This document shows, one piece after another, positions 8,527-54,190 of a DNA stretch of 64,000 nucleotides. Both the position numbers and the translations under genes were made by a program. This stretch comes from Scytolyngbya sp. HA4215-MV1 (GTDB lineage: Bacteria; Cyanobacteriota; Cyanobacteriia; Leptolyngbyales; Leptolyngbyaceae): NCBI GenBank assembly GCA_019359045.1, contig JAHHIA010000007.1, positions 1 to 64,000 on the forward strand, given 5' to 3'. Each line of letters opens with the position of its first letter. Position 1 is the first letter of the stretch. A model generated the notes under the pieces. The model did not search any database and was not told the origin of the DNA. It worked only from the letters and a program-made list of their open reading frames with translations.

Positions 8527-8539
8527 CTGGCAATCTCCT

Positions 8540-14426: not shown

Positions 14427-15476
14427 TTATGGCAGACCTATCCAGGCTTTTGCCACCAGAGTTGCCACTGTCGTGACAGGGTCTGCCAGGGCGATCACGC
14501 CATCTAATGCCTTCTTCAGGGTTGAGATCGCCTTGTCCACAAGACTGCGATCGGGTTGGGGTTTCTGCAACTCAGCTTCCAGTTTTTGAATTGGAATCGC
14601 TACCATTGCTTTTTCTGTTTCATCAATGGCATTGGTGGTAGCGATCGCCTGCTTCAATTGACTTAATGCACCTAACGCTGCCTGTAAATCAGGATTCGTG
14701 ACGGTTGTCTGAGTACTGGTTTGGTTTAAATTGACATTGCCCTCTGCCTGAATGGTGTTGAAGGGATTGTTACTACCGCTAATCGTGACGTTACCGAAAG
14801 ATTGAGATGGGGCTGGTCGCAACGGTTCTGCGATCGCTGCCGCAGTACTCTCTGGTGGTAACACCTGACCTGCCGTTTGATCCGCAGGTGCATTACTACT
14901 GCGACGCTTTCGGTTTTTCAGCACCGGCGTTGAGTACTCCGAACTACCTTCTAAGGCGATCGCGCTACAGCCAATCCTGTACGCCTCATCGTAGGGACTA
15001 CCTGCACCTAGCGCATCATAAAAGCCTTCCGCAAACTGAACTGCTGACTTGTCCCCGATCGGCTGATTCATGCCAATTACACAATCCACAAACTGGTGAA
15101 TTGCGGTCGCCTGGATCTCTGAATAGCAGGCATTCAGCAAGACACACTCAATCTCCCCTGTCTCAAAGATGCCAAATAGCCCTGCTAATGCTTCTGTGCT
15201 GACGAGTTGCACTTTCCCAGCATCATTTTCCAGTACGAGTCCCTTTTCTCCGGTGCCATGTCCAGAAAAGTGAACAATCTGTGGTCGATGATCCAGCAAT
15301 GCCCGTCGCAAATCCATTGTTCGTGCTGCCAGTTTGGTGATGATTTGAAAGCGATCTCGGTAGCGCGATCGTTGCAACGCCTCCTCAATTCGCCTTACTT
15401 CTGCATCTAAGCCCAATGGATTTGAACCTGTATTGCTTGGATTTGCAGTCAGAATGAGAATTTTGATCATGTTCAT
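14427..15476 (-). CDS. CHAT-domain (caspase-like) protein with effector-linked C-terminus
   Basis: About 349 residues from MNMIKIL (15476); an upstream ATG is possible. Residues 1-190 are a CHAT protease domain with catalytic HFSGHG (near 68) and LLNACYSE (near 113), so it is likely active. Next comes a beta-type motif NVTISGSNNPFN...GNVNLNQT (near 245-270), a helical region and a hydrophobic C-terminus (ALDGVIALADPVTTVATLVA). CHAT proteases in bacteria are activated in conflict systems to cleave partner proteins. The beta motif recurs near the N-terminus of the nSTAND1-WD40 protein at 19015-22161, suggesting the two associate. Confidence 0.8.
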   Translation of the reverse strand: MNMIKILILTANPSNTGSNPLGLDAEVRRIEEALQRSRYRDRFQIITKLAARTMDLRRALLDHRPQIVHFSGHGTGEKGLVLENDAGKVQLVSTEALAGLFGIFETGEIECVLLNACYSEIQATAIHQFVDCVIGMNQPIGDKSAVQFAEGFYDALGAGSPYDEAYRIGCSAIALEGSSEYSTPVLKNRKRRSSNAPADQTAGQVLPPESTAAAIAEPLRPAPSQSFGNVTISGSNNPFNTIQAEGNVNLNQTSTQTTVTNPDLQAALGALSQLKQAIATTNAIDETEKAMVAIPIQKLEAELQKPQPDRSLVDKAISTLKKALDGVIALADPVTTVATLVAKAWIGLP

Positions 15477-33930: not shown

Positions 33931-35022
33931 TAGCAATCCCAAGTCAGTTGTGAGAATCTAGAGAGGATTCAAATACGGTTGCGAACGGTTCTATGTTAGA
34001 AGACTTGACTGATTTCATTGACTCCAACCCCGATGCACGTGAACTCAAACGAGCAGTAGCTGTCCAAATGTTTCTCAAAGGGTATAAGCATCGAGAGATT
34101 GGGGAGAGTATCGGTGTGAGTTCAGGCTTCATTAGCAAATGGACGGGAGTCTACGAACAGTTGGGGGTATCTGGGTTGAAACTGGGATATCCCGGATCTG
34201 TCGGATACCTAGAACCGGAACAGCGGCAAGCAGTGATCGCTTGGTTGAAGCGCAAGAATTACTGGAATCTGGCGGAACTGCAAGCCTATATTGAAGCGGA
34301 GTATGAGGTGGTGTTTGACTCCAAGCAAAGTTACTACACTTTGTTTGAGCAAGCTGGCATTCGCTGGAAGAAGACTCAGAAGCGTAATCCTAAAGCTGAC
34401 CCCGAATTGGTAGAGAAAAAAACAGGAAATTATGTCGTGGTTGGACAGGCATCGGCAGGAAATTGTGACCAGAGGTCTTCTTTGAGGACGAATGCCACCT
34501 GCTCTGGGGTGATCTGTGCGGCTATGTGTGGGGCAAAACTAGCGAACGCATTGAACTGCCCATCACCAACGAACGTCTCAAGCAAACCTATTATGGAGCC
34601 GTTGATTTTTACACCCAACGCTGCCTGATTCAACCGACTGAGAAGGGCAATTCCGAGGGTACGATTGCTTTTCTCAAGTACTTGCTGGCTCAATGTCCCA
34701 ACTCTCGCATTGCCCTGATTTGGGATGGGGCCACCTACCATCGCTCTCAAGCCGTCAAAGACTACTTAGAATCGGTCAATCAGGGACTTGATGAGTCCAA
34801 TTGGAAAATCACCTGCATTCGCTTTGCTCCCAAGGACCCAAAGCAGAATCCGATTGAAGATATTTGGTTGCAGGCAAAGCGATTTATTCGAGAGTACTAC
34901 CATTTGTGCCAATCGTTTAATGCTGTTAAATTCCTCTTTGAGTTTGTGACTCACCGTCAAGTCTTTAACTTTGCAAAGCTTTTTACCTACGGTTGCTTCT
35001 CACAACTCATTTAGGATTGCTA
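33931..35022 (+). mobile_element. IS630-family insertion sequence
   Basis: Inverted ends TATAGCAATCC(C/T)AA...AGTTGTGAGAA occur at 33931 and, in reverse, up to 35022, with TA at both edges as expected for IS630 target duplication. Between them is one transposase gene in three frames. It has inserted into the 5' part of a short plus-strand ORF whose remainder ends in attC site A. Confidence 0.85.
33993..35014 (+). pseudogene. IS630 transposase, split over three frames
   Basis: Frame 1 (33993 to about 34420) encodes the HTH region (FLKGYKHREIGESIGVSSGF, FISKWTGVYEQLG). Frame 2 (about 34423-34475) gives QEIMSWLDRHRQEIVTRG. Frame 3 (about 34475-35014) gives VFFEDECHLLWGD, IALIWDGATYHRS and DPKQNPIEDIWLQAK, i.e. 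all three DDE residues. The first shift lies in an A7 run (34416-34422), where slippage is plausible. The second, at AGAGG (34471-34475), has no slippery context. The enzyme is therefore probably inactive. Confidence 0.8.
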
Positions 35023-35035: not shown

Positions 35036-35215
35036 AAAATAATAGATGAATTAAATTCATTGTCTGATAAGCAACTGAATAACATTGACTCACTTATAGA
35101 CCTGCTCAACAAATCCCATAGAAGAAATATTGCTTTTTTGCATTCGATAGACAGTTATGAAGAGTTAACAAAAATGAATTTAATACGCGAAATCAGAGAT
35201 AAAAACCACGCATAA
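35036..35215 (+). pseudogene. 3' remnant of an integron-cassette ORF
   Basis: A frame open for about 58 codons (IIDELNSLSDKQLNNIDSLI...LIREIRDKNHA) ends at TAA 35213-35215, which lies inside the left core box GCATAAC of attC site A. Stop codons overlapping this box are common in integron cassettes. There is no start codon; the IS630 insertion ends 14 bp upstream, so the 5' part has been lost or displaced. The helical sequence recalls small antitoxins but is not assignable. Confidence 0.5.
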
Positions 35216-35296
35216 CAATCCGGTTGGAGCGGACTGAGAAGGGCAATGGGTGTTGCAGCAAAGGTTACTGGCAGCCGCTCAACCGGAACGTTATCT
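35210..35296 (+). other. attC-like recombination site A
   Basis: Left core GCATAAC (35210-35216) and right core GTTATCT (35290-35296). Inner boxes CCGGTTGGAGCGG and CCGCTCAACCGG pair perfectly except for one unpaired G in the left box, the extrahelical base diagnostic of attC sites. About 50 bases form the variable central part. Length is 87 bp. Confidence 0.85.
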
Positions 35297-35466
35297 GGCT
35301 CCGCACAAACCCCTTGCACTTGTAGATAGACTCCTCTACAAGTATCCAGGATCTTCCGCAAGTAGTTCGATTACCTCAGTCAAGTGTTGATATTTATCAA
35401 ATTCTTTTGAACGACAGCTGAGTGTCAGGCAAAGTTGGTATTGATTGACGCAGAGGAAATTTTTCC

Positions 35467-35961
35467 ATGGCAAATAATCTGAATGGTGTGCAGCGTCATC
35501 CATTTAGGGCAGCGGATCACAGACAAGGACCCCAGTCAGGGGATGCCATGCTCGCTTCTGGTGGTTCATTGCCATTTCTGATGGGCGTGACTATTCCAGG
35601 TGGACAGGAACTGGTGTTGCTGAGTGGGCACACGCCTCCTGTCATCGACCACACGGCTCCGCTCGACAGCATCCAAGCGTTTGGGGATACTTACAAGCAA
35701 ACCATTGGTGTCTTGCAGGAATTGCAACAATCGCTGGCTCAACTCGGACTGGCGATGAGCGATCTGGTCAAACTCCAGGTGTTTCTGGTTGGCGACCCTG
35801 CTCTCGGTGGGCGTATGGATAGCGAAGGTTTCTCACGGGCATATGCCAAATTTTTCGGGACCCTAGAGCAACCCCATCTGGTCGCCAGAACCAGGGTACA
35901 GGTCGTAGGCTTGGTCAATCCTGGATGGTTGGTTGAAATCGAGGCGATCGCTGTGCGCTAA
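35467..35961 (+). CDS. RidA/YjgF-family protein
   Basis: A 164-residue protein of the RidA (YjgF/YER057c/UK114) superfamily, with LLSGHTPPVIDHT, TYKQTIGVLQELQQSLAQLGLAMSDLVKLQVFLV and the C-terminal TRVQVVGLVNPGWLVEIEAIA. The conserved arginine (ARTRVQV) of the enamine/imine deaminase pocket is present. The N-terminus is about 35 residues longer than classical RidA. Enzymes of this type hydrolyse reactive enamine intermediates. AGAGGA lies before the ATG. It is the first gene after attC site A, with no attC directly behind it. Confidence 0.85.
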   Translation: MANNLNGVQRHPFRAADHRQGPQSGDAMLASGGSLPFLMGVTIPGGQELVLLSGHTPPVIDHTAPLDSIQAFGDTYKQTIGVLQELQQSLAQLGLAMSDLVKLQVFLVGDPALGGRMDSEGFSRAYAKFFGTLEQPHLVARTRVQVVGLVNPGWLVEIEAIAVR

Positions 35962-35988
35962 CCCCTCCAGATGAAATAACACCCACGT

Positions 35989-36921
35989 TTAGTGAATCTG
36001 ACTAGCAATGGCAAGCCATTCCCGCGATCGCGGTTGAAATCCTAATTCTCGTTTGGCTTTGGCATTCGATGCTCCTCGTAATTGAGTTGCATAGTAAACC
36101 AGGTCTGCTCCTTGCACTTGTAGAGTATTTTCTACGGAAACGTGCAGTGGTGGTTTTGCACCTAACCATTGAGCATAGGCAGGCAACCAGACCTGCTGTT
36201 GGAGCGGAGTATCATCCACAATATTGAAAGCACCAGGAGTACCTTTTTCAACTGCTGCGACGGTTGCGGCTGCGGCATCTTCAACATGCACCCATGACCA
36301 TATTCCCTGACCATTCCCTACAAGCGGAAACTGCTGTTGTCGCACTTGGCTGGCTATGGCTCCATCAGGGGCGTACCAGGTTCCTGCTCCATAGAGAAAG
36401 CCATAGCGCAACGCAATTCCTTCTAAGTCATGGGCAGAAAAAACACGCTGTTCCAGATCAGCATACATTTTTATGCTGTCTGAGATCGCCGATGGAACCT
36501 CAGAAGCAAAAGGGGTACTCTCATCGGCTAAACCAACCCCTGGTGCATACCAGAAGGCGCTGGATTGCAAGATGTAGCGACGAACGCCAACCTTCTGGGC
36601 GGCACTTTGCAGATTACTGCCTCCAATTCGGCGAGTACGCTCGTCCAGAGCGGCAGCGGCGGCAATCGATTCCGGTGTAAGTTGTTTGGGCAGCGCTGTC
36701 AGTAGATCGATCACCACATCCGGTTGAATGCGTTGTAAGGCAGACTGGACGGCATCCGCATCAAAAATATCGAGCAGTTCTGCGATCGCGCCCTGTTGAG
36801 TTAAGAGATGGGCTCTATAGACCGAGCGAGTCATGCCAAAGGCATCATAGCCAGCATCCAGCAATTGACAAATAAGCGGACGACCGATCGCACCCGTTGC
36901 TCCAGCAATAAAAACTTTCAT
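35989..36921 (-). CDS. NAD(P)-dependent epimerase/dehydratase (SDR, extended type)
   Basis: A 310-residue Rossmann-fold protein with the nucleotide motif VFIAGATGAIGRPLICQLL at the N-terminus and YILQSSAFWYAPG further on. The usual YxxxK is not obvious, as in atypical SDRs of the NmrA/epimerase type. RYGFLYGAGTWYA and WVHVEDAAAATVAAVE are typical extended-SDR features. It starts 5 nt after the DoxX gene stop, so it is the third gene of an azoreductase-DoxX-SDR operon concerned with redox or xenobiotic metabolism. Confidence 0.85.
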   Translation of the reverse strand: MKVFIAGATGAIGRPLICQLLDAGYDAFGMTRSVYRAHLLTQQGAIAELLDIFDADAVQSALQRIQPDVVIDLLTALPKQLTPESIAAAAALDERTRRIGGSNLQSAAQKVGVRRYILQSSAFWYAPGVGLADESTPFASEVPSAISDSIKMYADLEQRVFSAHDLEGIALRYGFLYGAGTWYAPDGAIASQVRQQQFPLVGNGQGIWSWVHVEDAAAATVAAVEKGTPGAFNIVDDTPLQQQVWLPAYAQWLGAKPPLHVSVENTLQVQGADLVYYATQLRGASNAKAKRELGFQPRSREWLAIASQIH

Positions 36922-36926
36922 CCTGA

Positions 36927-37385
36927 TTACCGTCCTCGTGAACGCCAGACTATATTCCCAACACCAGATTGCACAACCAGCAACAGCCCACCTATCATCG
37001 CCAAATTTTTCATGAACATAATCTGTTCTGTTGGGTCACTAAAGTTGCTGTGGAAGATCAACCCCGCAATGAAGGTAAAGAATGCCAATGCAGAGGCTCC
37101 TAAGCGAGGATAAATTCCCAAAAGTACAGACAAGCTACCAAGCAATTCTAAAGCGATGGCAGCAGGTAAAAAGAACCAGGTGAGGGGCATTCCGAACGCT
37201 GCCATATACGTTTGAGTTTCTGCTGGATGAAGGATCTTGTTGACTCCAGACCACAAAAAGATGGCAACCAGAAGAATCCGGGCAATTAAAGGCAAGATGT
37301 TCCGAGTTGCATAAAGTCCAGTCGTGGAAACTCGTTGCTCAGTGTGTGCGTCAAAGGACGATGGACGAACAGAATGTTTGGTCAT
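36927..37385 (-). CDS. DoxX family membrane protein
   Basis: Start at ATG 37385 (MTKHSVRPSS), which has CGGAG eight bases upstream. About 152 residues, with four hydrophobic helices of the DoxX/SURF4-like type: IARILLVAIFLWSGVNKILH, FFLPAAIALELLGSLSVLLG, ASALAFFTFIAGLIFHSNF and MKNLAMIGGLLLVVQSGVG. DoxX-type proteins interact with quinone or thiol redox enzymes. It is located between azoreductase and SDR genes in a likely operon. Confidence 0.85.
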   Translation of the reverse strand: MTKHSVRPSSFDAHTEQRVSTTGLYATRNILPLIARILLVAIFLWSGVNKILHPAETQTYMAAFGMPLTWFFLPAAIALELLGSLSVLLGIYPRLGASALAFFTFIAGLIFHSNFSDPTEQIMFMKNLAMIGGLLLVVQSGVGNIVWRSRGR

Positions 37386-37452
37386 GATAAAAACTCCGAT
37401 TGGATAATGTAAACAGCTTGTGAGCAGCATCTGGCTGAGATGATTCAACTTA

Positions 37453-38073
37453 TCAGGTCTTGGCTAATTCCATTAAACGGGCGATCGCAGTCTCAGTAGC
37501 TTGTTGCTGCATCTCGCCCCCCATACCTTGATAGGGAACTTCAACATACTCCACATCCTGAATCCCCAGAAAGTTCAAAATAAACTGGAGATAAGGCACA
37601 CAAAAATCCATTGCACCGGCGGTTGTTCCGGGAGCATAGCTGCCAGCACGAGAACTGATAATTAAAGCTTTCTTTTCGGTGAGCAAGCCGCTAAAGCTTG
37701 CGGTATCACGGTTGTAGTCTACGGTACGACCCACGCGAATCACGTTGTCAAAGTAGGCTTTGAGATGGGCAGGAATTCCAAAGTTATACATGGGAACCCC
37801 CAGCACAATCCGATCTGCCTCCAACAGTTCAGCAATCAACATCTCCGATTCCGCCAGAATTGCCTTCTGATCATCTGTCTTTTGTTCATCGGGGGTAACA
37901 TTTGCAGCCACCCAGTCAGCCGTGATCAGTGTAGGAACATTCTGCCCAACATCTCGCAAATGATAGTGAGTCTCAGGATGATGGGATTGCCAGTGATAAA
38001 TGAACTTAGATGCAAGGGTGCGAGAAACAGACCCCTCTTGACGGACACTGGATTGAATTTCTAAGAGATTCAT
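37453..38073 (-). CDS. azoR: FMN-dependent NADH:quinone/azo reductase
   Basis: About 206 residues from ATG 38073 (MNLLEIQSSVRQEGSVSRTL), preceded by TTGGAGG. The flavodoxin-like fold of AzoR is clear: the phosphate-binding S.R..S.S start, VLGVPMYNFGIPAHLKAYFDNVIRVGRTV, and SRAGSY...FLGIQDVEYV. The enzyme reduces quinones and azo compounds with NADH. First gene of the operon with DoxX and SDR. Divergent from nothing; a YdcZ-like gene lies upstream on the same strand. Confidence 0.9.
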   Translation of the reverse strand: MNLLEIQSSVRQEGSVSRTLASKFIYHWQSHHPETHYHLRDVGQNVPTLITADWVAANVTPDEQKTDDQKAILAESEMLIAELLEADRIVLGVPMYNFGIPAHLKAYFDNVIRVGRTVDYNRDTASFSGLLTEKKALIISSRAGSYAPGTTAGAMDFCVPYLQFILNFLGIQDVEYVEVPYQGMGGEMQQQATETAIARLMELAKT

Positions 38074-38114
38074 GGTTACCTCCAATTAATTGATTTACAG
38101 AAAATAGAACAGGT

Positions 38115-38579
38115 TTACTTGGCATGTTGACGATCTAATTGAGTCAGCGCGATCGCGGCAATCAATAAAGCGATCGCAAACACTCTAGAGGCATTGAGCG
38201 GATGCAAAGGCACTCCAAACCAGCCCCATTGGTCAATCACCAACGACATGATCATCTGACTACAAACCACTGCCAACGTTGTTGTTGTTAGACCCAGCTT
38301 CGGCACGATCAATGTATTGAGGCTGACAAAAATTGCCCCTAACAATCCACCTGAAAATGCCCACCAGGGAACATCCCTAACCTTCTCGGCTAAATCGGGC
38401 GTTTTGAAAATGCCCAACCCAATCAGCAGGGCTAAAACACTAAACCCAACCAAAAAATTCATGGTGGCTGCCGCAATGGGAGAGTGAAGTGTTTGCTTTA
38501 ACCGGGCATTGGCAGCGGCTCCGATCGCCAAAAAACTGCCTGCTAACCCTGCTCCAACGATTGCTAATACAATATCCAT
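38115..38579 (-). CDS. YdcZ/DUF606-type DMT transporter, copy 1
   Basis: A 154-residue membrane protein with about five helices and the DUF606 features ANARLKQTLHSPIAAATMNFLVG and WWAFSGGLLGAIFVSLNT, ending in LNASRVFAIALLIAAIALTQ. DUF606/YdcZ proteins are half-size members of the drug/metabolite transporter superfamily and often occur in pairs. A second copy lies at 39348-39836, with a DUF2808 gene in between. The two may form a heterodimeric exporter. Confidence 0.85.
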   Translation of the reverse strand: MDIVLAIVGAGLAGSFLAIGAAANARLKQTLHSPIAAATMNFLVGFSVLALLIGLGIFKTPDLAEKVRDVPWWAFSGGLLGAIFVSLNTLIVPKLGLTTTTLAVVCSQMIMSLVIDQWGWFGVPLHPLNASRVFAIALLIAAIALTQLDRQHAK

Positions 38580-38720
38580 AGCATCTGATGACTCCTGAGA
38601 TTAGCGATAGAGAAAATGTTTGTCCTAACCGGCGTTGGTCAATGACGGGATGAACTAGCCGATGGAATAAGTTTCTGAGGCTAAATTCATCCCTAAACCT
38701 GTCAACGCCCTCTAACCTGC

Positions 38721-39266
38721 TTACCGTCCGCTGGGAGCATGAAAGGTCAGACGGCCGTAACCTAAAAACAAACCAGGACTGTTTTCTCCACTGGGGTAAG
38801 CCGTAATCCCCAATAGGTAAGCTCCATCCTGAGAGGGATTCTGTTGTGGTTTCAGGTAAAATGTCACGGTTTGCCCTGGCTGAACAGGATGATGCAGGAC
38901 AATGAGCAAGTCATTGGTATTTTCAGTTCCGCCTACACTCACCTGGGGAATCTCAGTTGCCGGATTATTTGCAAAAATGCGAGTTTGATTCGGTTTAAAC
39001 ACAATTGCTTCTTGATTGTTTGGTTGTGAGATCCGAATGGCTTGTAAGGGTGCTCCTGCATTTTCAGGAACGGTAATGACTAATCGATAAGTGTCTCCAG
39101 GTTGATTAGTTTGAATGATATTGGAGGTCAGGCGGACGACACGAGGCGCACGATCAAAGGCGTATTGCCCATTTCCAATTGGTGTTGCAATTGCAGGAAC
39201 AGCAAGCAAGAAAAGTGAACCTGAAACGAAAGTATTAAGTAGACGTGAGAATGTATGGCGAATCAT
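38721..39266 (-). CDS. DUF2808 exported protein
   Basis: About 181 residues from ATG 39266 with AAGGAGAA upstream. It begins with a signal peptide (LLNTFVSGSLFLLAVPAIA-TP). The mature domain (RVVRLTSNIIQTNQPGDTYRL, VTVPENAGAPLQAIRISQ-type strand, GQTVTFYLKPQQNPSQDGAY, FLGYGRLTFH) is the cyanobacterial DUF2808 fold, predicted periplasmic and of unknown function. It lies between two YdcZ-type transporter genes on the same strand. Confidence 0.85.
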   Translation of the reverse strand: MIRHTFSRLLNTFVSGSLFLLAVPAIATPIGNGQYAFDRAPRVVRLTSNIIQTNQPGDTYRLVITVPENAGAPLQAIRISQPNNQEAIVFKPNQTRIFANNPATEIPQVSVGGTENTNDLLIVLHHPVQPGQTVTFYLKPQQNPSQDGAYLLGITAYPSGENSPGLFLGYGRLTFHAPSGR

Positions 39267-39347
39267 TGTCAATTCTCCTTGAAATAGGGTTGTAGATGTT
39301 TGTAAGGATGCTTCCCAGCTCCGACAACCAATTGCAGATTTGTCGAA

Positions 39348-39836
39348 CTACTGGACGAGAAAGAAGATCGCGACCATTAACAGACCGATCGCAATGCGGC
39401 GATAACGGGTTAGCCGATTTTGAGGCAGTCCTAGCCAACCACAATGATCGGAAATCATGCCTGCGATCGCTTGTCCAAACACGACTAACCCCAGTGTTAG
39501 GGTCGCTCCCAAAATCGAAATGAAGTAAGCACTGGACGCAACATACCAGGCTCCAAAGAGTCCTCCGCTCAAACTCCAACGGGGTGCTTTGGGTAATGCA
39601 AACCAGGCAGGCGGGTCGAAGTGCTGACTCAGCAACAACGCCACTAATACGAGAAACCCAATGAAGTAAGAAACATTGGCTGCCAGCAATGCTGAGGTCA
39701 GGGAACGTGCCAATTGAGCATTGATGCTGGCTTGAATGGGTAGCAATGCTCCACACAAGAGTGATAGCAGCAGATAGAAACAAGTTTGACAGCCATGCAG
39801 GAGGCTCCGCGACCGCCATAGGGATGCTAATGACAT
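39348..39836 (-). CDS. YdcZ/DUF606-type DMT transporter, copy 2
   Basis: A 162-residue membrane protein with the same fold as 38115-38579: CGALLPIQASINAQLARSLTSALLAANVSYFIGF, WSLSGGLFGAWYVASSAYF, LVVFGQAIAGMISDHCGW. It reads away from the marR gene, and two dyads of the TATCTTGA..TCAAGATA type lie in the 150-bp gap, so MarR control is likely. Together with copy 1 it probably forms the transporter of this cluster. Confidence 0.85.
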   Translation of the reverse strand: MSLASLWRSRSLLHGCQTCFYLLLSLLCGALLPIQASINAQLARSLTSALLAANVSYFIGFLVLVALLLSQHFDPPAWFALPKAPRWSLSGGLFGAWYVASSAYFISILGATLTLGLVVFGQAIAGMISDHCGWLGLPQNRLTRYRRIAIGLLMVAIFFLVQ

Positions 39837-39921
39837 AGTTTTCCTGGCGAGGTGAATGAATTGAAGTAACGGAAATCTGGTTGCCGAGCGTTGAATCGAC
39901 GAAAGCTGGAAGCAATCAATT

Positions 39922-39939
39922 TATCTTGATGTCAAGATA
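39922..39939. promoter_or_regulatory. MarR-type operator 1
   Basis: An 18-bp perfect dyad, TATCTTGATGTCAAGATA apart from the two central bases, in the gap between the divergent YdcZ-type and marR genes. A second related dyad lies at 39965-39980. Confidence 0.65.
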
Positions 39940-39964
39940 CTTAAGATAAAGGTAAATGTCAAGA

Positions 39965-39985
39965 ATCTCGATATCAAGATATAAT
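39965..39985 (+). promoter_or_regulatory. MarR-type operator 2 overlapping a TATAAT box
   Basis: ATCTCGATATCAAGAT (39965-39980), a dyad with one mismatch pair, runs directly into TATAAT (39980-39985). The marR ATG follows at 39992, so a transcript from this box would be essentially leaderless. Binding here would repress marR. Confidence 0.55.
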
Positions 39986-39991
39986 GACCCC

Positions 39992-40495
39992 ATGACACAC
40001 GATCGCATCGACAAAATCTTGCAGCAGTGGGAGGAGGAGTCCCCCCATCTGGATGTTTCGGCGTTAGCCGTAACGGGGCGAATTCTACGGATTGCCCGTC
40101 TACTAGAAAAGCATCGTGAAACCGTGTTGGCGGAGTACGGGCTAAATGTTTGGTCGTTTGATATGTTGGCGACCCTGAGACGGCAGGGACCACCCTATCA
40201 ACTCAAACCGACCGATCTCTATGAACTGTTAATGCTCTCATCAGGGGCAATGACTAACCGCATCGATCGCCTAGAGCAGGAAGGAATTGTGGTTCGGGTT
40301 CGTGATCCGGACGATCGACGCAGTGTGAGTGTGCAGTTAACTCCGAAGGGAATCGAGTTGACGAATACCGTTATGCCGATCCTGTTTGAGCGAGAACAGC
40401 AATTCCTGCAGCAATTTACCAAAGCTGAGACCCAGACCTTGATTAAATTACTCCGTCGATTTCTATTGATCTTTGAAGAGCGTGACGTGAAGTGA
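39992..40495 (+). CDS. MarR-family transcriptional regulator
   Basis: About 167 residues from ATG 39992 (MTHDRIDKILQQWEEESPHL). A winged-helix MarR fold is clear: VWSFDMLATLRRQGPPYQLK, LYELLMLSSGAMTNRIDRLEQEGIVVR and the wing DPDDRRSVSVQLTPKG. Such regulators respond to phenolic or oxidant ligands. Two dyads upstream suggest autoregulation and control of the divergent transporter gene. The final 33 bases overlap, antisense, the 3' end of the glutaredoxin-MauE gene. The longer frame from 39956 runs through the operator and is rejected. Confidence 0.88.
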   Translation: MTHDRIDKILQQWEEESPHLDVSALAVTGRILRIARLLEKHRETVLAEYGLNVWSFDMLATLRRQGPPYQLKPTDLYELLMLSSGAMTNRIDRLEQEGIVVRVRDPDDRRSVSVQLTPKGIELTNTVMPILFEREQQFLQQFTKAETQTLIKLLRRFLLIFEERDVK

Positions 40496-41314
40496 CTTGT
40501 GTAAATGAGCCGGTTCTGATTGGGCGATCGCTGGCATAAAACTAGCGCTGCTTTTTTGAGACTTGAGATCTTGGGGATTAACGAAGGAGAAAATCAGGCT
40601 TGCCCCCATGAGAACCATCATGGCGTTTTCAGCAAAGCTCACAATCCCTAGAGGGGCTTTAGAATTGCCCCCGACACAGGCGCAATTTAAAGCCAATTTG
40701 TCCACATAGACCGCTTTGAAGACCGATGTAGCTCCCCCTAGCCCAACGAGCAGAGAACCAACCCCCGTCGCTAAAGGAGCCAGCCCAGACAGAAAGCCCA
40801 ATCCAATGAGCAATTCGAGAAAAGGGTAGGTTTTCCCATAGGGCTTGAAGCGTTTTGTCAGCAGGTCATACTTTGCAAAGCTGGTGGCAAAGGCATTCAG
40901 ATCCATTAACTTGAGCGAGGCTAGCATCGATAGGGAAATCCCCATGAATCCTGTCATGCCTAATGAGGTAGCAAGCGTCACTAATCCAGCCGTGGAAAAC
41001 AAAGCAATCACAGGTGTGTACGAGTAATCAGCTTTTTCTGGGGAGACTTGCAACCGTTCAGCCAGGTCAGAATATCCGCCAATTCGCTTTGTGCCAAAGA
41101 AGATTTGGGGAGTCGTCGCCACCCCGTACTGGGCTTTGAAGGCGTCAACTTCTGCCCGCGATCGCAGGGGAATGTCCTCAAACTCAATCCCTTTTTCAGT
41201 CAATAGATTGATTGCTCTCAGACCCCAGGGGCACTCGTGTTCGGGCATCGACATGCGGTAAACACGGACTGCTTCTGTTTCTGTAATGGTCAGTTGAGTC
41301 ATGAAAGTGGTCAT
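40463..41314 (-). CDS. Glutaredoxin - MauE/DoxX-like membrane fusion protein
   Basis: A 283-residue protein with GAGGAG before its ATG. Residues 15-90 form a glutaredoxin with CPWG as a monothiol active site (ECPWGLRAINLL), GVATTPQIFFGTKRIGGYSDL and no second active Cys. Residues 100-250 form a MauE/DoxX-type four-helix membrane domain (YGKTYPFLELLIGLGFLSGL), with NCACVGG near 220. The fusion suggests thiol-redox reactions at the membrane, perhaps coupled to metal detoxification. The promoter has MerR-type architecture (41359-41390), so it is probably controlled by the adjacent MerR regulator. Confidence 0.85.
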   Translation of the reverse strand: MTTFMTQLTITETEAVRVYRMSMPEHECPWGLRAINLLTEKGIEFEDIPLRSRAEVDAFKAQYGVATTPQIFFGTKRIGGYSDLAERLQVSPEKADYSYTPVIALFSTAGLVTLATSLGMTGFMGISLSMLASLKLMDLNAFATSFAKYDLLTKRFKPYGKTYPFLELLIGLGFLSGLAPLATGVGSLLVGLGGATSVFKAVYVDKLALNCACVGGNSKAPLGIVSFAENAMMVLMGASLIFSFVNPQDLKSQKSSASFMPAIAQSEPAHLHKSLHVTLFKDQ

Positions 41315-41358
41315 TGTTTTGCTCCTCGAAATTCATCGGCTTTAAGCTGAACAATCTC

Positions 41359-41390
41359 ACGCTAGAGCCTGGAGTCGGCTATAGAGTCAA
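41359..41390 (-). promoter_or_regulatory. MerR-type promoter of the glutaredoxin-MauE gene
   Basis: On the minus strand, TTGACT (41385-41390) and TAGCGT (41359-41364) are separated by 20 bp containing an imperfect dyad (ACTCTATAG ... CTCCAGG). The over-long spacer is the hallmark of promoters that MerR-family activators remodel. Confidence 0.65.
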
Positions 41391-41436
41391 GGGGGCAGTG
41401 GACTCAATTTTTCAACCCTTTTTTTGAGCAAAAGAC

Positions 41437-41468
41437 TTGACCCTCTAGCCAACTAGAGGGTTTAAGGT
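41437..41468 (+). promoter_or_regulatory. MerR-type promoter/operator of the merR gene
   Basis: TTGACC (41437-41442) and TAAGGT (41463-41468) are separated by 20 bp. The spacer contains the perfect dyad ACCCTCTAG-CCAA-CTAGAGGGT (41440-41461). This is classic MerR operator geometry, here for autoregulation. Confidence 0.8.
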
Positions 41469-41496
41469 AGAGCTAGAAATCATCTGAGGGTGATGT

Positions 41497-41958
41497 ATGA
41501 CAACAACCGCACGTTTAAAAATCGGTGATGTTGCCCAACAAACTGGTGTTTCCGTGGGCACATTGCGCTATTACGAAACCTTGAAGCTGCTATATCCTAT
41601 CGAGCGCGGGGATAATGGCTATCGCTACTACAGCATGGAGACGGTGCAGCAAGTGCAATTTATCAAGAAAGCACAATCCCTGGGGTTTTCTTTAGATGAG
41701 ATTCGGCAGATCCTCGATGTGCGCGATCGTGGCGGTACACCCTGTGACCTCGTGCAAGATTTGCTGGTGAGCAAGATCGAGCAATTAAACTCACAAATTT
41801 TTCAAATGACCATGTTTAGAGCTGAACTCAAACAGTATCGCGATCGCTGGGCGGGAATTCCTGCCTCCCAACAGAATGATTCTGCCATTTGTCCCTTGAT
41901 TGCTACTGTCTCTGCAAAAACTAACTCGAATCCCAAAAAACTGCGATCATCCTCCTGA
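41497..41958 (+). CDS. MerR-family metal-type regulator
   Basis: A 153-residue protein: KIGDVAQQTGVSVGTLRYYE (MerR winged helix), NGYRYYSMETVQQVQFIKKA and a dimerisation helix. Cysteines in GGTPCDLVQDLL and SAICPLI occupy the positions used for metal binding in ZntR/CadR-like members, so a thiophilic or Zn-type metal ligand is plausible. GAGGGTG precedes the ATG. It probably activates itself and the divergent glutaredoxin-MauE gene through two promoters of identical spacing. The stop lies 84 bp before attC site B. Confidence 0.9.
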   Translation: MTTTARLKIGDVAQQTGVSVGTLRYYETLKLLYPIERGDNGYRYYSMETVQQVQFIKKAQSLGFSLDEIRQILDVRDRGGTPCDLVQDLLVSKIEQLNSQIFQMTMFRAELKQYRDRWAGIPASQQNDSAICPLIATVSAKTNSNPKKLRSSS

Positions 41959-42042
41959 TTCATAACTTAAAAATGATGTTAGTAGAGGGTAACGGCAGGT
42001 AATTGGCAATGACGTAGTTCCGGGCGATGAATAGGGATAGCC

Positions 42043-42127
42043 AGATAACAAGTCGTTGCAGCGGCAGATTGGAGGGCATTGCGAGGAGTTACAAATTATC
42101 TACCGCCGCTGAACTTTGTCGTTATGC
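42043..42127 (+). other. attC-like recombination site B
   Basis: Left core AGATAAC (42043-42049), right core GTTATGC (42121-42127). Inner boxes GTTGCAGCGG and CCGCTGAAC pair fully once the extra G after GTT is left out, the typical extrahelical base. Length is 85 bp. Confidence 0.85.
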
Positions 42128-42403
42128 CGCTTAGCCCTTGGTGGGGGCGCAGTCGAAAGCTTATCTGCCAATATTCAAAATTAGGTGGGAAGTGCTTTCC
42201 AAGTTGGTAGAAACAGCAGCAATCTAGAATAGATAAAACAGAGCTGCTGAGAAAAGACTGATGACCTTACAAGACTACAAAATCGGGCATTGCAGTTACC
42301 TACTGGCGATCGCTGGCCATTGGTACAGGTTCTTGCGAGTTTTGATTGATACCAATATTGTTGCATGATCGTATATTGAAGAAGTTGAGATGCTTAAAAT
42401 CCC

Positions 42404-42941: not shown

Positions 42942-43031
42942 GTGTAACACATCATTGGAGCGCGGACAATATTGAGCTATTTTTGGATTGATTTGGAAGC
43001 GATCTATTGCCGCTCAATTCAGCCGTTATAC
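42942..43031 (+). other. attC-like recombination site C
   Basis: Left core GTGTAAC (42942-42948), right core GTTATAC (43025-43031). Inner boxes ATTGGAGCG and CGCTCAAT pair with one extra G in the left box; a further unpaired C follows. Length is 90 bp. Confidence 0.78.
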
Positions 43032-43074
43032 GGTTTGTATGAAACTCATGGTTAGCGAAATTTCCCGAATGTTG

Positions 43075-44103
43075 TTAATGCTGACTATCGAGTTCATGCT
43101 GATTTGAATAGAAGGATACCTGAGCGGTATCAAAGCATCCAGATGCGAGTGTAATCGCTACATCATGAACGGCGGTTGAGATCTGTTCAGAGATCGCTTC
43201 ATCCCATACTGCACGAGCTAGTGTCAGACCTCCAACAAGCACCGATAGGATCACCCAAGCTGTGCTTTGCTTTTCTACCGCCGTTCCAGGGATTAATCCA
43301 GATGCGATCGCGTTATTGAGCTTAAGCAACCCAGTTTGATAAGCAGAGCGGACTCGACGATCGGCGCGAATGACTTCCGGTGAAAGTGTGGGCAAGGCAC
43401 ACCCACAAGCCAAATCGAGTCGATGCTTGCGACCCATATAGTAGTCTGCTAAAGCTACTACCCAATCCGCCCCATAATCCGCTTGGAATGCTTTGATATT
43501 TGCCCGGTATTCTGCAAGTCCATCTACAACTGTTGCTAGGAAAGCATCTTCCTTAGAACGAAAGTAACCGTAGAAGGCTCCTGAAGTTACCCCAGCATCT
43601 TTAGCTAAGGTATTCACCCCAATACCATTGTAGCCGAGTGATCGAAAGCCTCGACTTGCCGCTTGGAGAATCCGGTCTTTGGTATCTTCCTTCTCTAGCG
43701 CCGAATTTGTGTCGCCGTTCGATTCTGCGAGATCGTTTGTCTCCTCAACACTGTCATTAGCTATATTGTACTGCTCTAAGAACTGATGAAGCTGTTGGGC
43801 AACGGCATCCCGGACGCGATCGATAAGCCGATTCTCCATATCTGCAAGTTCCACCTTCAATGGTTGATTTTGAAGAGAACTGACACTATCAGATAGCTTT
43901 CCTGCATTAGAATCTGACTGCTCCAAAGCCTGTTTTAATAAATCGGATACTGCTGCACTCAAGTTGGGCTGTCCACGTTTATCCAACCGTCCCGACTGAT
44001 TGATCAAACCTTGGGATTCTGCATAGTCCGCAACCGCATCCAGCAATTCATTTGGAATTCTGATACTGATGGCAGTGGTCAGCGAAGAGGTGGGCTTACC
44101 CAT
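43075..44103 (-). CDS. RHH - coiled coil - TetR fusion regulator
   Basis: A 342-residue protein with an unusual order. The N-terminal 60 residues look like a ribbon-helix-helix DNA-binding domain (TTAISIRIPNELLDAVADYA, NLSAAVSDLLKQALEQ). A coiled-coil linker follows (about 80-140), then a complete TetR regulator (KDRILQAASRGFRSLGYNGI, DAGVTSGAFYGYFRSKEDAF) with a TetR_C-type ligand domain. Three 10-bp direct repeats lie just upstream of its start, fitting RHH binding. It is minus-strand and divergent from a tautomerase/monooxygenase group that it probably represses. Confidence 0.85.
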   Translation of the reverse strand: MGKPTSSLTTAISIRIPNELLDAVADYAESQGLINQSGRLDKRGQPNLSAAVSDLLKQALEQSDSNAGKLSDSVSSLQNQPLKVELADMENRLIDRVRDAVAQQLHQFLEQYNIANDSVEETNDLAESNGDTNSALEKEDTKDRILQAASRGFRSLGYNGIGVNTLAKDAGVTSGAFYGYFRSKEDAFLATVVDGLAEYRANIKAFQADYGADWVVALADYYMGRKHRLDLACGCALPTLSPEVIRADRRVRSAYQTGLLKLNNAIASGLIPGTAVEKQSTAWVILSVLVGGLTLARAVWDEAISEQISTAVHDVAITLASGCFDTAQVSFYSNQHELDSQH

Positions 44104-44105
44104 GG

Positions 44106-44135
44106 CTATAAGACACTATAAGATCTATGAGACAA
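44106..44135. promoter_or_regulatory. 10-bp direct repeats, likely operator of the RHH-TetR gene
   Basis: CTATAAGACA, CTATAAGATC and TATGAGACAA follow each other directly, two bases upstream of the start codon's 5' side. One-turn direct repeats are typical operators for ribbon-helix-helix proteins. Confidence 0.55.
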
Positions 44136-44331
44136 GTGTAGCATGACTATACGATAGCGCCATCTTGTTTTTTTCGAGTGTTTAGATTGATCTTATTTGC
44201 CTATAAAGTTCATAATTGGCTGTAGATCCCAGACTGCAAGTGTTTTGCAGGAAATCCTAGAAAGAGCTTGACAACATTTTAACCGCAATATTATACTTAA
44301 TATATTACGATCAATATGAGATGGATGTGAT

Positions 44332-44356
44332 AAGTCTGAGAGCGACTCTCAGACTT
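44332..44356. promoter_or_regulatory. 11-bp-arm dyad before the tautomerase gene
   Basis: AAGTCTGAGAG-CGA-CTCTCAGACTT is a perfect dyad 44 bp upstream of the tautomerase ATG. It may be the TetR-side operator or an attenuator hairpin in the leader. Confidence 0.55.
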
Positions 44357-44399
44357 GATCTGGCACAAATCTGTTAACTAGACTAGAGAGGAAACACTC

Positions 44400-44942
44400 A
44401 TGCCTTTGCTTCGAGTTACTCACCAAACGGATGCCTTTACCGAAACTCAAAAAGCGCAACTTGCTGAAGAATTCACCCATGCCATTTTGGTGGCTGAAAT
44501 TGGCAATGACAATCCGACAGCGCGATCGCTAGCTCACGTCATCTTTCAAGAAATCGATCTAAAGACTTCCTGGTTTGTCGGAGGCAAGTTGCAGGAAACA
44601 GCACCGCAAGGCGGCTATTTCATTTTCGATGTCGTTTATCCCTTTGGTGCGGCTGATCAAGCAGCAAAAACCCAGTTGCATCAAGACATCAATGACATCG
44701 TTGCTCGGGTTCTGAATGTCGATGGCACTTTCCCAAATCGGGCTGGAGATTGGGTATTGATTCACGAAATCACCGAGGGAAATTGGGGTGTGAGCGGTCA
44801 AACCATGCGCATTAAGGACATTCACGCTGCAACTAAGGGTTCTCCTGAGCGGATGGATTACTTTATGCCGCTACTGGCTGCTCAACAGCGGATGCAAGAA
44901 GCTCACGGTTATCCTGTGGGTGCCCCTGGATCGAGCAAATAA
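44400..44942 (+). CDS. Tautomerase-family protein
   Basis: A 180-residue protein starting MPLLRVTHQT, so that after removal of Met the N-terminal Pro, catalytic base of the 4-oxalocrotonate tautomerase family, is exposed. TETQKAQLAEEFTHAI and HVIFQEIDLKTSWFVGGK resemble the beta-alpha-beta unit; the chain is roughly double the size of a minimal 4-OT, implying a second repeat or extension. GAGAGGAAACA is the ribosome site. Upstream of a monooxygenase and an aldo-keto reductase gene on the same strand. Confidence 0.8.
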   Translation: MPLLRVTHQTDAFTETQKAQLAEEFTHAILVAEIGNDNPTARSLAHVIFQEIDLKTSWFVGGKLQETAPQGGYFIFDVVYPFGAADQAAKTQLHQDINDIVARVLNVDGTFPNRAGDWVLIHEITEGNWGVSGQTMRIKDIHAATKGSPERMDYFMPLLAAQQRMQEAHGYPVGAPGSSK

Positions 44943-45011
44943 TGGTTCTTGTGAACTGGGCGAGTGAGGAACTCGCCCCACGACTCACTCAATTTGCAAC
45001 AAGGAGCGATT

Positions 45012-45365
45012 ATGACTCACGTTCATTGGATGGTTGAGCTTGAAATCAAGCCAGGACAAGAGAAAGCCTTAAAGACACTAGTGGCGGAAATGGTCAAAGA
45101 TGTGCAGACGAACGAAAGTGGTGCACTCGACTATGAATACCACATCAGTCAAGAGGGTAAGTGCCATTTGTTTGAACGATATGTAGATGGAGCAGCAGCG
45201 ATTGCTCACCTCAATACCTTTCAGCGAGTTTTCGCAGCGCAGTTTGTCGAAGTTTTTCAGCCGCTCCGCTTTGTGGTCTATGGCTCACCGGGCGCAGAAG
45301 TTAGGGAAGCCCTAGCTGGGTTTAATCCAATCTATCTGCAAACAGTCGGCGGTTTTCGACGATAG
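45012..45365 (+). CDS. Antibiotic-biosynthesis monooxygenase (ABM) domain protein
   Basis: About 117 residues from ATG 45012 (MTHVHWMVELEIKPGQEKAL), with AAGGAG upstream; the frame from 44964 lacks a ribosome site. The ABM ferredoxin-like fold is evident from TLVAEMVKDVQTNESGALDYEYH, KCHLFERYVDGAAAIAHLNT and FRVFAAQFVEVFQP-type helix. Members are quinol or small aromatic monooxygenases. Lies between the tautomerase and the broken aldo-keto reductase gene in one transcription unit. Confidence 0.85.
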   Translation: MTHVHWMVELEIKPGQEKALKTLVAEMVKDVQTNESGALDYEYHISQEGKCHLFERYVDGAAAIAHLNTFQRVFAAQFVEVFQPLRFVVYGSPGAEVREALAGFNPIYLQTVGGFRR

Positions 45366-45444
45366 ACAGTACGATCATGAGCAAGTGGTTTGATGTCGCA
45401 CGCGAACCACTTGTCAGTGAGCTTGAATTTTAGAGAGGATAAAT

Positions 45445-45975
45445 ATGAAATATCGACGGCTTGGGTGTTCCGGATTGCACGTAAGCGAATTGTCCCTGGG
45501 TTCTTAGGTGACTTACGGCAATCAGATCGATGAAAGTGCTGCAAAAGAAACCATGTCTGCTGCCAGAGATGCTGGCGTGAACTTTTTTGACAATGCTGAA
45601 GTGTATGCGAACGGAAAGTCTGAAATCCTGATGGGAAATGCTCTCAAGCAATTGGGTTGGGAACGGGAATCCTACATTATTTCTACCAAGTTCTACTGGG
45701 GAATTGCCGACGGGATCAACCGCAAGAACACGCTCAATCGTAAGTATCTACACCATGCGATCGACGGTTCATTGAAACGATTACAACTGGATTATATCGA
45801 TCTAGTATTTTGCCATCGTCCCGATCCTCATACGCCGATCGAAGAAACCGTTTGGGCAATGCACGACATGATTCAGCAAGGCAAAGCTCTGTATTGGGGC
45901 ACCTCAGAATGGTCAGCAGCCGAGATTGTCAGTGCTTGGCAGATTGCTGATCGCCAAAGTAACGCATTGGAGTAG
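45445..45975 (+). pseudogene. Aldo/keto reductase with premature stop and missing C-terminus
   Basis: Translation from ATG 45445 (GAGAGGATAAAT upstream) gives MKYRRLGCSGLHVSELSLGS and then TAG at about 45505-45507, where relatives of the potassium-channel beta-subunit-like AKR group have Trp. The frame continues [12 protein letters not shown]..., [14 protein letters not shown] (catalytic Asp and Tyr), STKFYWG (Lys), [10 protein letters not shown] (His). It ends at 45975 after about 177 codons instead of about 310-330, so the NADPH-binding end is absent. attC site D begins 30 bp later, which suggests truncation at a cassette boundary. Confidence 0.85.
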
Positions 45976-46005
45976 TTTATTGGCTTCGGTTTGAGGGCGA
46001 TCGCC

Positions 46006-46094
46006 GTATAACAATCTGCTTGCACGCCGACCGTATCAAGATGGTTGGTTGAGTCCGAAAAATCACTAGCGGCAGGTGAAGCGGAACATTGTAC
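46006..46094 (+). other. attC-like recombination site D (degenerate)
   Basis: Left core GTATAAC (46006-46012). The right core is ATTGTAC (46088-46094), so the GTT of the consensus is altered. Inner boxes GCTTGCACGCC and GGCAGGTGAAGC pair imperfectly with an extra G in the left box. Right-side recombination may be impaired. Confidence 0.6.
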
Positions 46095-46219
46095 AGCTTC
46101 GTTTCTGGTTTGGGGTGGTAGTTTGAATCGTATCTGTTTTGCCAAAAGTTAAGTTGTTTCAAGATTGTTGACAAGACGATTTATCATCGGGTGGGAAACC
46201 AAATTCCTTCAAAGTCGGT

Positions 46220-46795
46220 ATGACAATCACAACTGTCTTGGCATACATTTTGATTACTTGCTACTTTGTGGTGGAGCGATCGCTGAGAAAAAGCAAGCAA
46301 GCACTCAACCTTAAACCAGGGGTGGCTGATGCTGGTAGTTCTCAAGTATTGTGGGCCAGTGGCGTGATTAGTATCCTGCTTATCATTGCTGCTCCGATCT
46401 TAAATGTCTACGGGGTTGGGTATTGGAGCTACGGCAATGTTGGCTGGTTGGGATTGATATTGATGATTGGTGGATTAGCCATGCGATATTGGGCGGCTAA
46501 AACACTGGGTGAGTTCTATACAAGGACATTACAGATTATTGAAGGGCAGAGGGTTGTAAATCAAGCTCCGTACAACGTTATTCGCCATCCTGGATACCTT
46601 GGAACATTATTAATGGAGATAGGTGCAGGATTAGCTGTTACGAATTGGGTCGTGTTGTTAGTTGCTGTAGTTATCGGCATTACATCACGAACTTATCGAA
46701 TTGGTGTAGAAGAGCAAATGCTGGAAGCAAGTTTTGGAGAAGAATACAAGATGTATGCAGACAATACTTGGAAGTTGGTTCCGTTTCTGTATTAA
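46220..46795 (+). CDS. Isoprenylcysteine carboxyl methyltransferase (ICMT) family membrane protein
   Basis: A 191-residue membrane protein of the ICMT/PEMT-like family. Several hydrophobic helices precede the conserved SAM-binding region NVIRHPGYLGTLLMEIGAGL and the C-terminal YRIGVEEQMLEASFGEEYKMY with RxxxEE. It methylates an unidentified substrate at the membrane. It is the only gene between attC sites D and E and stops 14 bp before site E, again a single-gene cassette arrangement. No strong ribosome site precedes the ATG. Confidence 0.85.
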   Translation: MTITTVLAYILITCYFVVERSLRKSKQALNLKPGVADAGSSQVLWASGVISILLIIAAPILNVYGVGYWSYGNVGWLGLILMIGGLAMRYWAAKTLGEFYTRTLQIIEGQRVVNQAPYNVIRHPGYLGTLLMEIGAGLAVTNWVVLLVAVVIGITSRTYRIGVEEQMLEASFGEEYKMYADNTWKLVPFLY

Positions 46796-46809
46796 AGCCG
46801 TAACCAGCG

Positions 46810-46892
46810 GTACAACAACGCTGTTGCAGCGGATTAATAGGGTTAGTCGTGGAAACGAAGGTATTGGCAGCCTCCGAACAGCAACGTTATGC
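46810..46892 (+). other. attC-like recombination site E
   Basis: Left core GTACAAC (46810-46816), right core GTTATGC (46886-46892). Inner boxes CTGTTGCAGCGG and CCTCCGAACAG pair with two mismatches and one extra G in the left box. Length is 83 bp. Confidence 0.75.
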
Positions 46893-46940
46893 CGCTTCGT
46901 TTAGTCGGTGGGGTGCAATTGACGAGTTATTTGCGAGCGA

Positions 46941-48846: not shown

Positions 48847-48851
48847 CAGCG

Positions 48852-48937
48852 GCAGAACAACCCCATTGCAGCAGACGAGCAGAGTCTTTGTGCTTCGTTT
48901 GGGGCATATCTGTCACCGCTGAATGGGAACGTTATGC
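48852..48937 (+). other. attC-like recombination site F
   Basis: Left core GCAGAAC (48852-48858), right core GTTATGC (48931-48937). Inner boxes CCCATTGCAGC and GCTGAATGGG are exact complements except for the one extra G in the left box. Length is 86 bp. Confidence 0.82.
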
Positions 48938-48947
48938 CGCTTGAGTA

Positions 48948-49080
48948 CGATCGCCAATCTTGTAGAGTGCGTTCCATAGTGCAACACTTGCGACTCCACT
49001 GATAAATTTTGGGGAACGCACCGTTCTCATGTTTGAAGCAAGCGATTACAGTCTAGCAACGCCCATACAGGCCGATCGCC
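48948..49080 (+). repeat. Direct repeat left of the TIR-WD40 gene
   Basis: Roughly 133 bases that recur at 53819-53954 in the same orientation with about 85% identity by eye. Shared words include GCAACACTTGCGACT, CCACTGATAAATT, GAAGCAAGCGA and TACAGTCTAGCAA. Each copy carries an internal dyad (here GTGCGTTCC...GGAACGCAC). Confidence 0.8.
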
Positions 49081-49266
49081 GAGAGGCTATCTATTGGGAT
49101 CAAGAGGAAAAGCGTTAGACCAGGCGTTGGTTTTGTGAGAAGCGATCACCCTCATGCATTGCAGGATAAGAAGTTAACAACTGAGTGAAGAAAAACTGCA
49201 ATTTCCGCTTTTGCTTTGAATAAAAATAGTACTGTACTGGCAGAGTACTTTTTTTAGGCTGGGGCA

Positions 49267-53703: not shown

Positions 53704-53818
53704 TGGGTAGAGCGGTCTTGTGCAAAAGCTCTCTCACCTGGTGCGGCGATCGTCTACCTTACGCATTGGCGTGAAGATAGCCCAAAGCGTAATTTTTTAA
53801 CATGTCCCGATATCCGTG

Positions 53819-53954
53819 CGATCGCCGATCTTGTAGGGTGCCTGCCTTAATGCAACACTTGCGACTCCTCCACTGATAAATTGGGGGGAACGCGCCGTGC
53901 TTATGCTTGAAGCAAGCGACTACAGTCTAGCAATGCCCATACCTGCCGATCGCC
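53819..53954 (+). repeat. Direct repeat right of the TIR-WD40 gene
   Basis: Second copy of the roughly 135-base repeat found at 48948-49080, same orientation. It lies about 115 bp after the TIR-WD40 stop and 240 bp before folC, marking the right border of the accessory region. The rest of the 53704-54190 gap shows no gene. Confidence 0.8.
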
Positions 53955-54190
53955 AAGAAGTGATCTGTATAAAATTCAAAGATTAAATGTGGCGAAGTTC
54001 TATTTGAAGCACGCGAAGTTGATTGGATTTAGGAAACGTTAGTTGGTTTAGATCGAGAGACTGCAACGTTCGTGGGTTAGTTATCGCAGTAGATGGACGT
54101 CGATCGAAGTTGAGTCACTTCCACCCCCTCAATCTGACCAAAGAATGTGCTAGGGTGCAGAATCGTCACCTAATATTTCTGTAGAACATT

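Follow-up and report, generated by a model that had tools for sequence, protein, structure and literature searches.

An integron cassette is commonly a single promoterless open reading frame (ORF), according to the available part of PMC3856429, and the median coding sequence in cassettes is given as 575 bp for mobile and 362 bp for sedentary integrons in the accessible portion of PMC5371416. The same portion gives 4 kb as the default distance at which IntegronFinder clusters attC sites, and an equal cut-off appears in the part of PMC9668308 available to us. Class 1 integrons also contain fused cassettes, for example blaGES-1/aacA4, which arise by partial or total loss of attC and are excised as one unit (PMC4670013, available in part). 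Here we describe a segment between two plus-strand attC sites, A and B, in a window of 64,000 nucleotides (contig JAHHIA010000007.1, positions 1 to 64,000) from the cyanobacterium Scytolyngbya sp. HA4215-MV1. The segment resembles cassettes of sedentary chromosomal integrons, or of attC clusters without integrase, in having a 3' attC, the orientation of its neighbours, and a start cognate to its R'' arm. It differs from ordinary cassettes in its size of 6.8 kb, in its ten genes on both strands, and in two regulators with their own operator regions. Like the class 1 fused cassettes it has several genes ahead of a single functional attC, whereas no attC remnant was detected in it, its ends are cognate, and it uses both strands. 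We interpret positions 35291-42121, 6,831 bp from cut point to cut point, as a single integron cassette that carries two regulator-operon modules and ridA, and give this reading a probability of roughly 0.6. The 6.7 kb from A to B exceeds the default IntegronFinder criterion (attC sites less than 4 kb apart), and the segment would be an extreme variant of the integron cassette, beyond the clustering distance of the usual finder. The sites and the cassette start are as follows.

35208..35298, plus strand: attC site A, 3' end of the preceding cassette, which is interrupted by an insertion sequence (IS); cut after G35290
35290..35300, plus strand: cut point and start of the A-B cassette, GTTATCTGGCT, cognate to R'' of attC B
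42041..42129, plus strand: attC site B, 3' end of the ten-gene cassette; cut after G42121
42940..43033, 46808..46894 and 48850..48939, plus strand: the other clear attC sites of the window, C, D and E, training sites of model R1 along with A and B

In a cassette circle the attC site is complete, and its R'' arm pairs with the bases that start the integrated cassette, right after the cut of the preceding attC. In an array, then, the variable R' bases are part of the following cassette, and pairing with the R'' of their own site is not required. The latter point is also made in the available part of PMC5371416. The R'' end of attC B is AGCCAGATAAC (42039-42049), the exact complement of GTTATCTGGCT over 11 nt, so the A-B segment starts with the sequence cognate to its own attC. 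Within the window both the 11-mer and its complement are unique, their places being precisely 35290-35300 and 42039-42049. In a comparison of 28 array attC sites of the genome, the start after A and site B are each other's best match. The end type, GTTATCTGGC, is absent from the starts and from the R'' ends of three relatives (0 of 154 each). Across 21 consecutive pairs the mean match was 8.14 of 11, compared to 5.88 in 763 non-consecutive pairs, and the observed sum was reached by none of 20,000 permutations, indicating that the end test works in this genome; D-E, for example, matches at 9 of 11 positions. The cognate 11-nt ends make A-B most likely one cassette rather than a row of cassettes with lost attC sites. 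Both ends of the segment would have been made by recombination by an integron integrase, its start and the R'' arm of site B being the cognate halves of one attC, as in an excised circle, which would join attC B to GTTATCTGG. The DNA is inferred to have entered as one circle and to be still excisable. The test shows that the ends of A-B belong to one cassette; it says nothing on whether the original circle already held the full set of ten genes.

Rfam models at the gathering threshold gave no match in the window, and attC was therefore modelled from the window's own sites. Covariance model R1 was built from the five clear sites A to E, which score high by construction, and R2 from 30 of the genome sites found by R1. 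Site A scores 85.4 bits with R1 and 86.5 bits with R2, and its bottom strand folds with a z score of -4.4 relative to shuffles; site B, at the 3' end of the cassette and with R''/L''-L'/R' pairing, scores 79.6 and 74.6 bits. R1 also finds sites elsewhere, with at least 41 matches over the 6.6-Mb genome at E<=10, where 150 out of 617 candidates were scored. R2 gives 39 matches at E<=1e-4 in the same genome, and every one of the 40 family genomes searched has one or more. The modelled stem pairs covary over the 30 genome sites (0.419 versus 0.143 in shuffled alignments, 0 of 500), in an alignment that was fitted to the structure.

No attC-like site was found in the interior of A-B by either model with filters off, in agreement with the preliminary description, which had reported no attC between the two sites and had suggested a covariance-model search for decayed copies after each gene. 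The top interior scores were 10.5 bits (R1) and 12.7 bits (R2), and both belong to one minus-strand stretch within ydcZ1. As a yardstick of decay, the site at 46004-46096, which lies outside both training sets and whose R' lacks GTT, still scores 28.5 bits with R1 and 36.7 bits with R2 (E 8e-8).

A genome profile search for the integron integrase (NCBIfam TIGR02249) gave one match above the cut-off, at positions 2345-3286 of contig C25 (488.4 versus 265 bits). This integrase is full-length, aligns over residues 13-324 with IntI4 of V. cholerae (2a3v), and lies 1 kb from an attC. The region around it (locus L026 on C25, 1-3289) holds the integrase with a short array that apparently runs off the contig end. 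A partial integrase match with a stop is present near the array of another contig, C10.

The gene content and candidate regulatory regions of A-B are listed below.

35467..35961, plus: RidA-like protein (Ribonuc_L-PSP), PF01042 6.9e-13
35989..36921, minus: SDR / NAD-dependent epimerase-like protein (Epimerase), PF01370 2e-25
36927..37448, minus: DoxX membrane protein, PF07681 6e-18; 86% identity in loci L050/L183
37453..38085, minus: AzoR-like flavodoxin-fold quinone/azo reductase (Flavodoxin_2), PF02525 9e-43
38115..38579, minus: YdcZ-type exporter 1 (DMT_YdcZ), PF04657 1.5e-39
38721..39272, minus: DUF2808 protein, between both ydcZ genes, PF10989 4.8e-35
39348..39836, minus: YdcZ-type exporter 2 (DMT_YdcZ), PF04657 3.4e-36
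39922..39985, no strand assigned: likely MarR operator/promoter region, with palindrome TATCTTGATGTCAAGATA at 39922-39939, a second palindrome at 39965-39980 and TATAAT at 39980-39985
39956..40495, plus: MarR regulator, PF01047 2.4e-13; 86% identity in L050
40463..41314, minus: glutaredoxin-MauE fusion (Grx-MauE), PF07291 and PF00462; homologues 66-78%
41440..41461, no strand assigned: likely MerR operator, 22-bp palindrome ACCCTCTAGCCAACTAGAGGGT, in a surrounding TTGAC..CTCTAG..GGTTTA motif common to L192
41497..41958, plus: MerR regulator, PF09278 and PF13411; 63% identity in L192

All ten genes, which are of stress type, are present and each matches a named Pfam family; these matches and the covariance models confirm the genes and the flanking attC sites as first described. 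Homologues of the SDR reach 62% identity and those of AzoR in relatives 72-83%, while RidA has a single match at E<=1e-30, with 49% identity, in the order set of 41 other genomes. The true start of MarR is probably the ATG at 39992, judging from the alignment. In the window the TATAAT box (39980-39992 including the spacer) ends 6 nt before this likely start codon, and the marR transcript may be leaderless. Base composition gave no clear boundary within the block, with GC content at third codon positions of 0.35-0.55 in the ten genes. HIP1 density was considered as a marker of origin (1.48 per kb in the block) and set aside as non-discriminating, several other cassettes being about equally rich.

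The block departs from the single promoterless ORF, a trait that is typical and not strictly defining of cassettes, in having ten genes on both strands with conserved operator-promoter regions. Between marR and ydcZ2 there are promoter-like matches on both strands and two palindromes of type TATCTTGATATCAAGATA, one overlapping the TATAAT box. In an alignment of the window with seven loci of our choice, this region is recognisable in 8 of 8 sequences; they range from Planktothrix and Anabaena as far as Pseudanabaena, in which the palindrome is a variant. Since the paired palindromes overlap promoters, MarR is predicted to repress itself and the divergent ydcZ2-DUF2808-ydcZ1-azoR-doxX-SDR operon. 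MerR would likewise control itself and the Grx-MauE gene. Apparently bringing its own promoters and regulators, the cassette should not need an array promoter; promoters within arrays are known in Vibrio (PMC2945992, available in part).

As to function, the block likely serves detoxification of quinone-like or electrophilic compounds together with thiol-redox repair, judging from its gene families. The association of a MarR regulator with genes for azoreductase and DoxX points to the detoxification of quinones or other electrophiles, and in the quinone sensors YodB, QsrR and MhqR of Firmicutes a MarR protein likewise adjoins azoreductase and DoxX-like genes. YodB/QsrR-type sensors act by a thiol switch based on redox-active cysteine, whereas the MarR translation in the window contains no cysteine; that switch type is thus excluded, and this MarR should sense a ligand rather than be oxidised. 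A literature search on MarR, quinone, azoreductase and DoxX, conducted without most subscription journals, found nothing.

To place the modules among relatives, we compared 190 loci from other genomes, several of which are overlapping fetches of one place, some not cyanobacterial, and many with flanks of 1.5 kb. A DNA search with the whole block in 58 genomes gave, outside its own genome, just matches to single genes or to parts of one module. The proposed check, the same block without attC in other cyanobacteria, succeeded for the two modules separately and failed for the block as a whole. MarR and two YdcZ genes at 50% identity or more, without the other block genes, are present in 34 of the 190 loci and are widespread in cyanobacteria. 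Locus L050 (L183 is apparently the same place) has the order DoxX-(extra gene)-AzoR-YdcZ1-YdcZ2, divergent from MarR, with 75-86% protein identity; its extra gene appears to be histidine-kinase-like, and its two ydcZ genes are 20 bp apart. In L182 and L181, AzoR lies less than 1 kb from stretches of 69 bp and 86 bp that resemble both ends of the SDR gene. These loci point to an older chromosomal operon, probably SDR-DoxX-AzoR-YdcZ1-YdcZ2 divergent from MarR, in which the place of SDR is suggested by the fragments in L181 and L182. The DUF2808 gene between the ydcZ genes is then an addition in this block; a DUF2808 gene at 36% identity adjoins AzoR-DoxX in L184. The A-B genes agree with this cyanobacterial operon in gene order, identity to L050/L183 and conserved operator region, while they differ in including DUF2808 and in lying inside a cassette, the operon having no directly flanking attC in the loci read.

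The second module, Grx-MauE divergent from MerR, has its counterpart in L192, which shares the divergent arrangement and matches 40587-41714, promoter region included, at 68% nucleotide identity; in A-B the pair is joined tail to tail to marR. Both genes at 50% or more are present in 10 of the 190 loci, L192 included. No attC was found with R1 in 17 of the loci (L181-L197), and R2 gave weak matches in L181 (25.6 bits) and L185 (22.4 bits), at distances of 6.3 and 2.6 kb from the closest gene of the block. On 51 loci (870 kb), examined for a link between the operon and attC, R2 gave eight matches in six loci at E<=0.1, with about 5 expected by our estimate from 39 per 6.6 Mb, and none of the eight has an exact end partner of at least 8 nt downstream within its locus. 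The block contents are thus chromosomal-type modules found without attC in other cyanobacteria, and the ten-gene composite has so far been seen in this cassette alone. The proposed cassette would carry two self-contained modules of this kind, plus ridA, on both strands.

Several observations weigh against the single-cassette reading. Modules 1 and 2 occur together in none of the 190 loci, many of which have short flanks as stated. The contig of the window has no integrase match in the genome profile search, and the bottom strand of attC B is not unusually stable, folding no better than shuffles (z -0.76). The end test itself is not universal: the B-C match is 7 of 11, and 11 of the 763 non-consecutive pairs also have an 11-nt run, owing to common end types. 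Among the five window starts, those after A and C have an exact downstream partner of at least 8 nt, and those after B, D and E lack one. Three relatives have 144 consecutive gaps, of which 22 measure at least 4 kb, and 10 of these 22 score at least 9 of 11, compared to 8.8% of non-consecutive pairs; under a start-specific null that allows for common end types, one of the 22 reaches p<=0.05 and five reach p<=0.058. Lastly, the test cannot separate capture in one step from later growth within a smaller cassette.

Such growth is the explanation that survives best beside the single capture, and we consider it unlikely while giving it real weight. In this case a small cassette (ridA or ridA-merR with attC B) would later have taken up the MarR operon, the Grx-MauE/MerR pair, or both, by homologous or illegitimate recombination, the ends remaining those of a true cassette. 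It is consistent with the canonical orientation of the first gene, ridA, and the last, merR, both on the plus strand, with the separate occurrence of the modules in all loci compared, and with the 33-bp overlap of the marR and grx-mauE frames at their 3' ends, as at an illegitimate junction. The DUF2808 gene between ydcZ genes that are nearly adjacent in L050 indicates that the block did take up DNA, and some long gaps in relative G013 hold recurring ORF pairs of 176 and 208 aa, IS-like by appearance. However, a Pfam search found no transposase family among the ten genes, and no exact repeat of 8-14 nt is common to 35901-36050 and 41901-42060. Because neither a transposase family nor a flanking direct repeat was found, capture in one step or movement as a block is given the larger share.

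It is quite improbable that A-B is a row of single- or few-gene cassettes whose internal attC sites were lost. Fused cassettes have their class 1 precedent, and the same array does contain a decayed attC at 46004-46096, but neither model detects a remnant inside A-B, and the first start would match the last R'' by chance only, as in the 13 of 763 non-consecutive pairs that score at least 10 of 11 or the pairs with a run of 11 noted above. Five genes moreover keep the order of L050, apart from the additional gene there between doxX and azoR. A chromosomal stretch trapped between two attC-bearing insertions at scattered sites, and never a cassette, would fit the spread of attC-model matches (E<=0.01) over 14 contigs of this genome, but the bases after the cut of A would then be arbitrary, yet they match R'' of B over 11 nt, which leaves this explanation with very little probability.

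The preliminary description had left two options: one very large cassette holding many genes and promoters within it, or an insertion into the array as a separate event. The cognate 11-nt ends favour the former. An insertion between cassettes is disfavoured because what follows the cut of A is the start that the R'' of B itself predicts; an insertion within a smaller cassette, for instance one with ridA, keeps some probability. Within these limits, the end-match test offers an inexpensive means of distinguishing a genuine large cassette from fused ones or from interrupted arrays.

The neighbouring array includes further intervals of interest. B-C is a single-gene cassette of 904 bp that directly adjoins A-B. 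The C-D gap (43026-46886) is split by the decayed attC; the start after C matches this site with a 9-nt run and 8 of 11 positions (22 of the 763 non-consecutive pairs have a run this long or longer), and the piece that follows the decayed site matches D at 9 of 11. Given both end matches, C-D is probably two cassettes. The decayed site would close a four-gene cassette of TetR, tautomerase, ABM and an aldo-keto reductase cut to 155 aa. Upstream, an IS of HTH_33/DDE_3 type in two overlapping frames (33993-35014) adjoins the end of the cassette closed by attC A; the start of that cassette was sought by its expected sequence and not found, and the IS lies there. Just after attC E, a gene of 1,478 aa is flanked by a direct repeat of about 150 bp (48945-49092 and 53816-53966, 86-87% identical).

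Other attC sites were noted in the same genome and its relatives. Locus L037, on contig C27 of this genome, has a multi-gene interval between attC sites (7898-12023, end match 7 of 11) with a 56% paralogue of the block SDR; its other genes are, by our reading, Crp-like, HD-domain-like, and a second SDR. In the same locus (13284-15077), an attC with CGTGTGCGA in place of its R' precedes a candidate reverse transcriptase gene, an arrangement resembling the insertion of a group II intron at attC. Three attC-like sites on two contigs (L044 1948 and 3771, L045 5456) have almost identical bases after them, GTTAC(C/G)CCCCATTCAAAC, and L047 and two sites in G005 have ATGCTGGGCGTACA in common at the 5' end; in both cases the common bases are possibly those of a repeated element inserted at attC. 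In G013, equal-scoring attC runs occur at a spacing of about 308 bp in both orientations (L201, L202, L203). Gaps shorter than 1 kb, the class that includes these runs, have an end match of 6.92 of 11, close to the null of 6.2.

Whether large cassettes are general in this family is a question on which the long gaps of the relatives are suggestive; it is possible and not established. The best of these gaps is one of 7.1 kb in G013, where the end type, GTTATCTTGC, is rare; this gap holds an IS-like pair of 176 and 208 aa, as do the two other long gaps examined in G013. Among the papers listed in searches of titles and the openings of abstracts, with most subscription journals outside them, none describes an integron cassette of the size of A-B. 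The results suggest that large cassettes can be missed when attC sites are clustered with a 4-kb threshold. We tentatively propose, while judging it somewhat less than an even chance, that whole stress regulons with their regulators and operators originate from double-stranded chromosomal DNA and travel as single integron cassettes, and that such cassettes of 4-8 kb may be common in this cyanobacterial family, split by default finder settings. Because its genes lie on both strands, the A-B cassette cannot come from one mRNA copy, and if whole-regulon capture is true, a cassette of this kind is relevant to the debated origin of cassettes. With ends that pass a recombination test, and with parts for which chromosomal relatives can be identified, a ten-gene cassette offers a concrete case on that question.

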